From: Oceanithermus profundus DSM 14977
GTDB taxonomy: Bacteria > Deinococcota > Deinococci > Deinococcales > Marinithermaceae
DNA length: 64,000 bases
Direction of reading: 5' to 3'
NCBI RefSeq assembly: GCF_000183745.1
Contig: NC_014761.1
Location: 744,001 to 808,000 of the forward strand
Shown here: piece by piece, positions 33,259-59,609 of the stretch
Layout: each line of letters starts with the position of its first letter
Position numbering within the stretch: the stretch's first letter is position 1
The notes under the pieces: generated by a model
What the model was told of the DNA's origin: nothing
The model's input: only the letters and a program-made list of their open reading frames with translations
Databases searched by the model: none
Made by a program: the position numbers and the translations under genes

Positions 33259-33287
33259 TTGACGCGCTGCCGGCCCCCACGTATACT
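33259..33287 (+). promoter_or_regulatory. Promoter of the arginine operon
   Basis: TTGACG at 33259-33264, 17-nt spacer, TATACT at 33282-33287. Near-consensus sigma-A-type promoter. The transcript would start about at the leader-peptide ATG. Confidence 0.85.
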
Positions 33288-33297
33288 TATGCACGAG

Positions 33298-33327
33298 ATG
33301 AAGCGCCGCGCTCGACGACTGCACTAG
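33298..33327 (+). CDS. Arginine-rich leader peptide (attenuator) of argG
   Basis: Nine-residue open frame MKRRARRLH starting 10 nt after the -10 box: four of nine residues are Arg, encoded CGC CGC and CGA CGA (CGA is rare in this GC-rich genome). An in-frame ATG also lies 9 nt earlier. It is followed 24 nt later by a terminator hairpin before argG. Ribosome stalling here when Arg-tRNA is scarce would be expected to permit read-through. Inference from layout; no experiment known to me. Confidence 0.7.
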   Translation: MKRRARRLH

Positions 33328-33351
33328 TGTAAACGGGGACAAGCGCCTTTG

Positions 33352-33378
33352 GGTGGGGCTTGGCCCCACCTTTCTTCT
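33352..33378 (+). terminator. Attenuator terminator upstream of argG
   Basis: Perfect 8-bp stem GGTGGGGC (33352-33359) and GCCCCACC (33363-33370), loop TTG, followed by TTTCTTCT. It lies between the Arg-rich leader and argG, whose own ribosome site GAGGTGA is at about 33397. I could not see an obvious alternative antiterminator stem. Confidence 0.8.
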
Positions 33379-33408
33379 GCGGGCGCGGCGTGAATCGAGG
33401 TGACGTGA

Positions 33409-34599
33409 ATGAAAGTTGTTTTGGCCTACTCCGGCGGTTTGGACACCAGCATCATCCTGAAGTGGCTCATCGAGGAATACGGGGCCGAGGTCATCGCTTT
33501 CACGGCCGACATCGGCCAGGGCGACGAGGTGGAGGAAGCCCGCGAAAAGGCCCTGGCCACCGGTGCGAGCAAGGCCATCGCCCTCGACCTGCGCGAGGAG
33601 TTCGTGCGTGACTTCGTATTTCCCATGTTCCGCGCCGCCCCGCTCTACGAGGGCTACTACCTGCTCGGCACCTCGATCGCCCGACCCCTGATCGCCAAGT
33701 ACCTGGTGCAGATCGCCGAACAGGAGGGGGCCGAGGCCATCAGCCACGGCGCCACCGGGAAGGGCAACGACCAGGTGCGCTTCGAGGTGTCCGCCTACGC
33801 CCTCAAGCCCGACATCAAGGTCATCGCCCCCTGGCGCGAGTGGGCGTTCACCGGCCGCACCGAGATGATCGACTTCGCCGAGAAGCACGGCATCCCCGTG
33901 GTCCAGACCCACGCCAAGCCCTACTCGATGGACGCCAACATGCTGCACGTTTCCTACGAGGGCGGCATCCTCGAAGACCCCTGGGCCGAGCCGCCGGCTG
34001 ACATGTTCCTCTTCACCCGGAACCCGGAGGAGGCGCCCGACGAGCCCGAATACGTCGAGATCGAGTTCGAGAACGGCGACGCGGTGGCGGTGAACGGCGA
34101 GCGGCTCTCGCCGGCGGCGCTGCTGACCCGGCTCAACGAGATCGCCGGCCGCCACGGCGTGGGCCGGGTGGACCTGGTGGAGAACCGCTTCGTGGGCATG
34201 AAATCGCGCGGCGTCTACGAGACCCCGGGCGGCACCCTGCTCTACCACGGCCGCCGGGCGGTGGAGAGCCTGACGCTCGACCGCGAGGCGCTGCACCTGT
34301 GCGACCAGCTTTCGCCGAAGTACGCCGAGATCGTCTACAACGGCTTCTGGTTCTCGCCCGAGCGCGAGGCGCTCCAGGCCCTCTTCGACGAGGTGGCCCG
34401 GTCGGTCACCGGAACCGCCCGCCTCAAGCTCTACAAGGGCGGCGTGACCGTCGCCGGCCGCAAGTCGCCGGTCAGCCTCTACGACCAGAAGCTGGTCAGC
34501 TTCGACGAAGAAGGCGGCTACGACCAGCACGACGCCGAGGGCTTCATCAAACTCAACGCCCTGCGGCTCAAAGCCCGGGCGCGGGCGCAGAAAGGCTAG
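33409..34599 (+). CDS. argG: Argininosuccinate synthase
   Basis: Joins citrulline and aspartate with ATP in arginine synthesis; cytoplasmic tetramer. 396 residues. N-terminal PP-loop [27 protein letters not shown], and the EGGILEDPW region are intact. First structural gene behind the arginine attenuator; argH starts 2 nt after its stop, so the pair is tightly coupled. Confidence 0.98.
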
Positions 34600-34601
34600 C
34601 G

Positions 34602-36008
34602 ATGGCGGGGGAGGGTTCGAAAAAGCTCTGGGGCGGTCGCTTCGCCGGCGAGACCGACAAGCTGGCCGAGGCGTTCAACAACTCGCTCGACTTCGACCGG
34701 CGGCTCTGGCGCGAGGATCTGGACGGCAGCCGCGCCCACGCCCGCATGCTGGCCAGGCAGGGCATCCTGACCGAGGAGGAGGCCCGGGCGATTCTAGCGG
34801 GCCTCGACCGGATCGAAAAAGAAATCGAGGCCGGCGCCTTCCCCTGGCGCGACGAGTACGAAGACGTGCACATGAACGTCGAGGCGCGGCTAACTGAGCT
34901 GGTGGGCGAGGTCGGCGGCAAGCTGCACACCGCCCGCAGCCGCAACGACCAGGTGGCCACCGACCTGCGGCTCTGGCTCAGGCGGTCGCTGGCGGGGATC
35001 GTGGAGGCGCAGCAGGAGCTGGCGCGGGTGCTGGTGGCCGAGGCGGAGCGCCACCTGGAGCCGCCCGTCGTCCTGCCCGGTTACACCCACCTGCAGCGGG
35101 CGCAGCCGGTGCTGCTCTCGCACTGGTTCATGGCCTACTACGAGATGCTTTCGCGCGACACCACCCGGGTGCTCGACGCCCTCTTCCGCATGGACGAATC
35201 GCCCCTGGGGGCGGCGGCGCTGGCGGGGACGAGCTTCCCCATCGACCGCCACTACACCGCCGAGCAACTGGGCTTCCTGGAGCCGATGCGCAACAGCCTG
35301 GACGCCGTCGCCAGCCGCGACTTCGTACTGGAGGCGCTTTCCGCGATTGCCATCGGCCAGCTGACGCTCTCGCGCCTGGCCGAGGAGCTGGTGCTCTACT
35401 CGAGCTTCGAGTTCGGCTTCGTCACCCTGCCCGACGCTTTCGCTACCGGCAGCTCGATCATGCCGCAAAAGAAGAACCCCGACATCCCCGAGCTGATCCG
35501 CGCCAAGGCGGGGCGGGCGATCGGCGACCTGGTGACGCTGCTTACGGTGGTCAAGGGCCTGCCGCTGGCCTACAACAAAGATCTGCAGGAGGACAAGGAG
35601 CCGGTCTTCGATGCGGTGGATACTTATACATCGTCCCTCAAGCTTATGGCGGCGCTGCTTCCGGGGCTCACGTGGCACCCGGAGGTTACGAAGCGGGCGG
35701 CGACGGGCGGCTTCGCCCTGGCCACCGACCTGGCCGACTACCTGAGCCGGAAGGGCCTGCCCTTCCGCCGGGCGCACGCGGTGGTGGGTCGGATCGTCCG
35801 CAAGCTGCAGGAAGAGGGCCGCGACCTCGACGACCTTGACCTCGACGAGCTGCGTTCCTTCAGCGAACTGTTCGACGAGGACGCGCTGGCGTTGCTCTCG
35901 GTCGAGGGGTCGGTGAGCAGCCGAAACGTCTACGGCGGCACCGCGCCCGAGCAGGTGCGGGCGCGGATCGCCGAAGCCAAGAAGGAGTTGGAGGAGGACG
36001 GGTCATGA
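34602..36008 (+). CDS. argH: Argininosuccinate lyase
   Basis: Splits argininosuccinate to arginine and fumarate. 468 residues. Fumarase/aspartase superfamily signature [12 protein letters not shown] (with catalytic Ser) near residue 285, [13 protein letters not shown] near 107, and TAEQLGF are present. The ATG at 34602 begins [13 protein letters not shown], typical for ArgH. Its stop overlaps the next gene start by 4 nt. Confidence 0.97.
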
Positions 36009-36544
36009 TGAAGCTGGAGCTCAAGTCCGCCGAGTTGCCCGAGGTGGACCCGACGCTCGAAACCAACCTGCGTAAGGCGCGGCTCAGCGACGTGGACCAG
36101 ATCTTCGAACTCATCAAGTACTGGGCCGAACAGGGGTTCATGCTGGTGCGCAGCCGCAGCCAGCTCTACGAGAACATCCGCGACTTCTACGTGGTCGAGG
36201 ACGTCGAGGGCCACATCGTCGGCACCGTGGCCCTGCACGTGCTCTGGGCCGACCTGGCCGAGATCCGAAGCCTGGCGGTGCACCCCGCCCGCCAGGGTCA
36301 GGGGCTGGGGCGCTGGCTGGTGCTCGCCAGCGAGCGCGAGGCGCGCGACCTGCACGTGCCCAAGGTCTTTACCTTTACCTTGCAGGACGGGTTCTTTCGC
36401 AAGCTCGGCTACCAGGACATCCCCCGCGAGGACCTGCCCCCCAAGGTCTGGGTCGAATGCGCCGACTGCCCCTTCCAGGACAACTGCCACGAAATCCCCC
36501 TGATCAAGCACTTGTCCGGAGTGAACGGAAAAGGTAGCGTGTAG
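36005..36544 (+). CDS. GNAT acetyltransferase, probable short N-acetylglutamate synthase (ArgA type)
   Basis: 179 residues. GNAT core with acetyl-CoA loop [18 protein letters not shown]. The C terminus has [18 protein letters not shown], a C-x2-C-x5-C cluster found in short ArgA-type enzymes of this lineage and able to bind metal. Placed between argH and carA and coupled to argH (ATGA), it most likely makes N-acetylglutamate, the first step of arginine synthesis; substrate is inferred from position, not proved by the fold. Confidence 0.82.
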
Positions 36545-36547
36545 CCA

Positions 36548-37714
<1,167 letters not shown>

Positions 37715-58188: not shown

Positions 58189-59609
58189 CAGGCCTTCACC
58201 CCCAAGACCTCGCGCACGTCCACGACCTCGCCGGTCAGGGCCGCTGCGGCGACCATCGCCGGGCTGGCCAGCAGGGTGCGACCCTGGGGCGAGCCCTGCC
58301 GCCCCTTGAAGTTGCGGTTCGAGCTGCTGATCGAGATCTCGTCGCCCACCAGCTTGTCGGGGTTCATCGCCAGGCACATGCTGCAGCCGGCGTAGCGCCA
58401 CTCGAAGCCGGCGTCGCGGAAGATTTGGTCGAGCCCCTCGGCCTCGGCCTGGCGGGCCACCTGCTCGCTGCCGGGCACGACGATGGCCCGCACGCCCGCG
58501 GGCACCCGGCCGCCCGCGGCGCGCACCACCCGCGCGGCCTCGCGCAGGTCGCTCAGGCGGCCGTTGGTGCAGCTGCCCACGAAGGCGACGTCGATCTTCT
58601 GCCCCTTGATGGGCCGGCCGGGCTCGAGCTTCATGTATTCCAGCGCCTCGCGCACCAGCGCCGCCTCCTCGTCCGGGACACCTTCCGGATCCGGCACCCG
58701 TTCCTCCACGGTGATCGCCTGCCCGGGGTTGATGCCCCAGGTGACGTAGGGGGCGATCCGCGAGCCGTCGATTTCCACCACGTCGTCGTACTCGGCGTCG
58801 GGGTCGGAGGCCAGGCCGCGCCAGTGGGCCACGGCCGCCTCCCACTCGTCTTCCGCGGGCGCGTAGGGGCGGCCTTTCAGGAAGGCGAAGGTGGTCTCGT
58901 CGGGGTTGACGTAGCCGATGCGGGCCCCGCCCTCGATGGACATGTTGCAGACGGTCATGCGTTCTTCCATGGTCATCCCGTCGATCACCGCACCGCCGTA
59001 CTCGTAGGCGTAGCCCTGGCCGCCCCCCACGCCCAGGGTGCGGATGACGTGCAGGATCACGTCCTTCGCGCCCACGCCGGGCCGCAGCCGGCCGTTGACG
59101 TTGATGCGCCGCACCTTGAGCCGGGGCATGGCCACCGTTTGGGTGGCCAGCACGTCGCGCACCTGGGTGGTGCCGATGCCGAAGGCGATGGCCCCAAAGG
59201 CGCCGTGGGTGGAGGTGTGGCTGTCGCCGCAGACGATGGTGAACCCCGGCTGGGTCAGGCCCTGCTCCGGTCCCACCACGTGGACGATGCCCTGCCTGCC
59301 GCTGCCCACGTCGAAGAGTTCGATGCCGTGCTCGCGGGTATTCTTGCGCAACTCCTCGATCATCGCCTGGGCCAGCGGATCGGCGAAGGGCTCGCTGCGG
59401 GCGTCGGTGGGGACGATGTGGTCCACCGTCGCAAAGGTGCGGTGCGGCATGGCTACCCCGAGCCCCAGTTCCCGCAGCATTCCGAAGGCCTGCGGGCTGG
59501 TGACCTCGTGGATGAGGTGCAGGTCGATGAAGAGCTGGCTCTGCCCGCTTGCGAGCCGGCGCACCTCGTGGGCTTCCCAGACCTTTTCGTAGAGCGTTTT
59601 CCCGGCCAC
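58188..59609 (-). CDS. leuC: 3-isopropylmalate dehydratase large subunit
   Basis: Fe-S hydrolyase for leucine synthesis. 473 residues. [26 protein letters not shown] and [14 protein letters not shown] supply the cluster cysteines. The start is GTG at 59609 with GGAGG upstream; earlier ATG would enter the attenuator. First structural gene of leuC-leuD-leuB-SDR-ilvD. Confidence 0.97.

Follow-up and report, generated by a model that had tools for sequence, protein, structure and literature searches.

The window analysed here, a stretch of 64,000 nucleotides from Oceanithermus profundus DSM 14977 (genome of 2,439,291 bases in two contigs), carries argG, the gene of argininosuccinate synthase, followed with small gaps or overlaps by argH, a gene for an amino-acid N-acetyltransferase-like protein and carA, which are presumed to form one operon with it. 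Between 33259 and 33408 a promoter, a short leader open reading frame (ORF) and a GC-rich hairpin with a T-rich tail follow one another in this order before argG, which is directly preceded by the Shine-Dalgarno-like sequence GAGGTGA (table 1). An earlier note, made from the letters of this DNA, had described the region as an arginine attenuator, with a strong promoter and a stem-loop of loop TTG and T-rich tail lying in order before argG. These parts are all recovered: the promoter is the sole sigma-70-type match across the 1.3 kb scanned, where shuffled sequences are expected to give 0.2, the stem-loop and its tail occupy the place claimed for them, and the identity of the downstream gene is confirmed by its protein family. 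The hairpin has a predicted stability of -17.6 kcal/mol, reached by 5 of 200 shuffled sequences, and its T-rich tail is imperfect. The region gave no Rfam match up to an E value of 5, the T-box covariance model included.

Table 1. Features of the argG upstream region and of the presumed operon in the window.
Feature	Position	Strand	Basis or remark
Sigma-70-type promoter, -35 TTGACG (33259-33264), 17-bp spacer, -10 TATACT (33282-33287)	33259..33287	+	sequence match; kept in 6/6 genus genomes
ARG-box-like palindrome CGTATACTTATGCA, one mismatch to the pattern TGNATNNNNATNCA, lying over the -10	33280..33293		putative ArgR operator
Leader ORF ATGAAGCGCCGCGCTCGACGACTGCACTAG, MKRRARRLH-stop, 9 codons	33298..33327	+	frame kept in 6/6 genus genomes; silent changes; TAG/TGA/TAA stops
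Putative sensor codons CGA-CGA (Arg6-Arg7)	33313..33318	+	invariant in the genus and in the Marinithermus-like genus g3
Predicted antiterminator 5' arm GGGGACAAGC	33335..33344	+	complementarity to 33358-33367
Intrinsic-terminator-like hairpin GGGTGGGGC-TTG-GCCCCACCT with tail TTTCTTCT	33351..33378 (hairpin 33351-33371)	+	tail invariant in the genus
Predicted antiterminator 3' arm GCTTGGCCCC (terminator loop and 3' arm)	33358..33367	+	
argG, argininosuccinate synthase, first gene of the presumed controlled operon	33409..34599	+	NCBIfam TIGR00032
argH, amino-acid N-acetyltransferase-like gene and carA, presumed argG operon	34596..37714	+	TIGR00838, NF005840, TIGR01368

Given the end of the -10 element at 33287, transcription is predicted to start near 33294, and the AUG of the leader at 33298 would then be separated from the 5' end of the transcript by about 4 nt. 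No Shine-Dalgarno sequence precedes this AUG, so that translation of the leader would be leaderless or nearly so. A further in-frame ATG, at 33289, is upstream of the predicted start. Leaderless mRNAs are common in the phylum, where they account for up to 60% of the genes of Deinococcus deserti (PMC9031893).

All six genomes of the genus keep the nine-codon leader, with its frame preserved despite nucleotide changes: Ala5 is encoded by GCT, GCG or GCC, Leu8 varies silently or is replaced by Phe, and the three different stop codons are found at the same position, while the linker downstream of the stop is variable and the CGA-CGA pair is invariant. Leader peptides of the genus include MKRRARRLH, MKLRARRLK and MKCRARRFK. 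The leader with four Arg residues, two of them encoded by CGA, is present as the earlier note described it, but its Arg3 is replaced by Leu or Cys in two species of the genus, and only Arg4, Arg6 and Arg7 are kept.

For a broader view, argG was located in genomes of the phylum and the upstream DNA was aligned to the argG start, leading to 95 usable upstream regions, in which a leader was defined as an ATG-initiated ORF of 5-40 codons containing an in-frame CGA-Arg pair and lying no more than 230 nt from argG. Such ORFs are found in 45 of the 95 Deinococcota upstream regions, to be compared with an expectation of 3.5 based on dinucleotide shuffles, with 3 such ORFs on the reverse strand and with 1 among 69 argG upstream regions of other phyla, three controls that address the fact that Arg codons are common in this GC-rich lineage. 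Two isolated Thermus-like cases (L036 and L045) were rejected as true leaders, being probably due to chance, and were excluded from the codon counts, which leaves 43 leaders in 21 genera. Conservation of the leader frame in relatives, on which the earlier note had made its proposal depend, is therefore found in 21 genera, far above all controls. Examples outside the genus of the window are MWGEERRPQ (g3), MEGRVRRLCA (genus g20 of family f4), MPNPTRRVRR and MSDKKPVTRRVRRR (f3), MNPFTCRR (f2) and MTINRRPS (f5). No leader is found before argG in the Thermus-like (g6), Meiothermus-like (g12) and g21 genera of f4 or in genus g2 of f1. On the ArgG tree the trait requires six changes and it is found in all five families, so that the simplest reading is that of a leader ancestral to the phylum and later lost in some genera. 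In one genome of f5 (L029, genus g7), the position of the first Arg codon, some 200 nt before argG, reads TGA where relatives read CGA, and this leader was likely broken by that single change. Overall, the conservation of the leader is strong, and the predicted arginine leader-peptide attenuator is very probably real and conserved.

The conserved core of the leader is CGA-CGA. Among Arg codons, the share of CGA is 3.7% in 36 genes of the window and 4.2% in the argG genes of those genera that have a leader. All 43 leaders show CGA as the opening codon of the defining pair, which is partly an effect of the way the ORFs were selected; among the leader Arg codons outside the defining pair, hence unselected, 23 of 104 are CGA, and ORFs with two consecutive Arg codons but without the CGA-Arg pair occur only in Thermus- and Meiothermus-like genomes. 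CGA is read by inosine wobble of the tRNA-Arg with anticodon ACG. The tRNA-Arg anticodons of the genome are TCT, CCG, CCT and ACG, with no TCG among the typed tRNA genes, a few long genes of Leu/Ser size being left untyped; CGA should thus be decoded only through the inosine wobble. In a Salmonella his-leader assay, high de-attenuation was caused by Arg-Arg pairs containing CGA and was taken to reflect poor decoding of this codon (PMC4046918).

Downstream of the leader, a segment that had escaped the earlier note, GGGGACAAGC, can pair with GCTTGGCCCC, and this pairing and the terminator hairpin are mutually exclusive. Compared with shuffled spacers, the complementarity is better for the sequence of the window (p=0.004 at a scanning length of 10 nt) and, at the same length, for the genus sequences L002, L004 and L005 (p values of 0.0003-0.008), is not significant in L003, also of the genus, and reaches 0.014 with an 8-nt window in the Marinithermus-like L015; these values are not independent, the sequences being related. 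L015 shows one compensatory change in each helix, A-U to G-C in the antiterminator and U-A to C-G in the terminator, a number not beyond that of shuffles. With a standard ribosome footprint, the leading edge falls at about 33328 when the ribosome is at CGA-CGA and at about 33338 when it is at the stop codon, and only in the latter position is the start of the antiterminator arm covered. When the covered bases are removed, the sequence of the window folds as the antiterminator for a stall at CGA and as the terminator for a ribosome at the stop codon. The equilibrium folds favour the terminator even in the stall state in L002-L004, and the antiterminator in both states in L005 and L015, so that the switch would have to be kinetic or the footprint different, and the equilibrium folds fall short of a clean proof.

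The attenuator proposed in the earlier note is supported by the leader frame conserved across genera and, in the genus, by a predicted terminator/antiterminator switch of suitable ribosome geometry. We consider it likely, with a probability of about 0.8, that 33259-33408 is a ribosome-mediated attenuator sensing arginyl-tRNA, which controls argG, argH, the N-acetyltransferase-like gene and carA and is layered on an ArgR-type operator, a reading that rests on sequence and its comparison. Transcription would start near 33294 and the leader AUG, at the extreme 5' end, would be used in a leaderless type of initiation. When arginine is ample, the ribosome would rapidly pass CGA-CGA and arrive at the stop codon at 33325, with its leading edge over the start of GGGGACAAGC; with this arm partly covered, the hairpin would form and transcription would end within its T-rich tail. 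A shortage of charged tRNA-Arg would make the ribosome pause at CGA-CGA, leaving GGGGACAAGC free to pair with GCTTGGCCCC before the 3' arm of the terminator is complete, and the polymerase would continue into argG.

Different designs are met in the other families. In the Trueperaceae-like f3, a long hairpin takes its 5' arm from the leader ORF itself and a second hairpin follows the stop codon; in L027, L030, L071, L074, L087 and L095, the 3' arm runs into a T tract or stops close to one, and T tracts are perfect in several f3 genera. In this family, pausing at the terminal Arg codons may allow the ribosome to block the terminator directly. No T tract follows the hairpin in f3 g24 and in f4 g19/g20, so that termination is unsupported in these genera, and in f4 g19/g20 the antiterminator is not above chance when compared with shuffles. 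We would give even odds to a more general scheme, in which an ancestral, phylum-wide argG leader-peptide attenuator, acting together with ArgR, uses as its obligatory slow sensor the codon CGA, which only tRNA-Arg ACG would read, through inosine wobble; the Trueperaceae-like leader ORF would be the terminator 5' arm, with the pause blocking termination without an antiterminator, and in other families the device would have been remodelled into a compact pair of terminator and antiterminator, or lost.

Some further structures were observed before argG. In L023 (f2 g8), within the last 97 nt before the gene, the end of the leader, GATCCGACCGACG, forms a long and nearly perfect hairpin with CGTCGGTCGGATC, which lies near the start of argG. 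In the Thermus-like genus g6 (e.g. L033 and L037), a short hairpin that is conserved, CCCCC-TCGA-GGGGG, with TAGACTGGGA or TAGACTAGGGG after it, lies between the ARG-box/-10 and argG, in the place of the Arg leader. In the Meiothermus-like genus g12 (e.g. L054 and L058), the block TTGTAC-17-TACTGTATGGCTTTGTGTGGGG is strongly conserved before argG, and it is possibly a second promoter.

In the usual textbook view, the control of arginine synthesis in bacteria belongs to ArgR. The palindrome over the -10 element, likely an ArgR operator, would add to the locus a second, ArgR-based layer of control that is absent from the earlier note. ARG-box-like sites (TGNATNNNNATNCA with at most one mismatch) are present in 82 of the 95 argG upstream regions, and ArgR was found in 108 of the 111 genomes, with a match of 1.4e-28 in that of the window. 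Given this site over the -10 and the presence of ArgR, repression is probably the first control layer; the E. coli trp operon combines repression and attenuation, and argG would be a parallel case. At the promoter of the argF-argC-argJ operon of the genus there is an ARG-box-like site, TGAATAAACATGCG, but the leader is not repeated there. An attempt to list the ArgR regulon of the genome with the pattern GTATACTTATGCA was uninformative, with 10 matches at up to two mismatches and 4 control matches.

The same scan brought to light, on the minus strand of the window, a leucine leader peptide of 15 protein letters (59724-59677) ahead of leuC, which starts near 59609. It contains the rare CTA-ACG-CTA, lacks a Shine-Dalgarno sequence, shows the promoter layout seen at argG, is separated from leuC by a GC-rich hairpin with TTTTT, and is conserved in the three other genus genomes read.

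The near-universal occurrence of ArgR and of the site over the -10 raises the question of whether argG is controlled by nothing but ArgR repression, with a leader and hairpin that are neutral or do no more than tune basal expression. The Thermus-like and Meiothermus-like genera and f1 g2, which keep the operator without a leader, are in line with it, but a frame-preserving, phylum-wide Arg-Arg leader with an invariant CGA would be left unexplained, which makes ArgR control alone very unlikely. We also regard it as unlikely that the leader senses arginine but acts on the translation or stability of the argG mRNA, for example through pairing before the ribosome-binding site, and not on termination. 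Positions 33303-33314 can indeed pair with 33379-33390, the leader-bearing genera devoid of a T tract would fit, and the Salmonella orf34-speF leader acts largely via mRNA structure and decay (PMC6386406). That pairing, however, is not conserved, with 75% of cells paired and no compensatory change, and the hairpin with its T-rich tail, invariant in the genus, and the perfect T tracts of several f3 genera argue for termination. Finally, CGACG, the most constant string of the region, which pairs with a downstream CGTCG in some f3 and f2 genomes, might be kept as a nucleotide motif, i.e. a protein site or an RNA stem, and not as codons. Against this, the string shares its reading frame with an ATG upstream and a stop close by, it is surrounded by a cluster of further Arg codons, and no obvious pairing partner exists for it in the genus of the window. 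This explanation appears extremely improbable.

Ribosome-mediated leader-peptide attenuators are known for trp, his, leu and thr in Proteobacteria and for trp, cys and branched-chain elements in Actinobacteria. The argG region resembles them in that a short ORF rich in codons of the end product, a predicted terminator and a predicted alternative pairing precede the first biosynthetic gene, but differs from them in the amino acid (arginine), in the phylum (Deinococcota), in an AUG that lacks a Shine-Dalgarno sequence and coincides with the predicted 5' end and, in the genus of the window, in the lack of a strong 1:2 protector stem. Mycobacteria have leaderless short-ORF cysteine attenuators, in which, as would be the case here, a leaderless upstream ORF with codons of one amino acid controls an operon; amino acid, gene and phylum are different, and the argG region has an intrinsic-terminator-like switch. 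The arginine T-boxes of Firmicutes sense tRNA-Arg charging in cis by directly binding the tRNA, and the argG leader, at which no T-box match is found, would also sense it in cis. The argG attenuator, as read from sequence, is of a known kind, ribosome-mediated attenuation, and its novelty lies in its specificity, phylum and mode of initiation.

Two consecutive rare Arg codons in an upstream ORF sense arginine also in Salmonella orf34-speF, which, unlike the argG leader, controls polyamine synthesis via Rho, mRNA decay and the structure of the ribosome-binding site (PMC6386406); the orf34/DUF2618 core HIRR...HIMM present upstream of speF (PMC6386406) does not occur in MKRRARRLH, which is unrelated and lies upstream of argG. 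Similarly, rbfL of Staphylococcus aureus, a leader of eight residues with rare Arg codons, senses arginine limitation, but pausing on it represses translation of a biofilm regulator by occlusion of the ribosome-binding site, and does not attenuate a biosynthesis gene (PMC13009471). One study found no RNA element for arginine in Actinobacteria and names only T-boxes for this amino acid elsewhere (PMC1262725), and a 2010 statement considered leader-peptide systems as unshown outside Proteobacteria and Actinobacteria, ermC excepted, with Firmicutes added (PMC2965389). In the literature searched, limited to papers available free of subscription, no bacterial operon for arginine biosynthesis was found described as controlled by a leader-peptide attenuator.

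If true, a phylum-wide attenuator would mean that arginine operons, too, make use of sensing by the ribosome, with a leaderless type of initiation. The invariant CGA would offer a natural test of whether codons read by inosine wobble are selected as sensors, and the Thermus-like and Meiothermus-like genera, in which the leader was naturally lost, would serve as built-in comparisons.
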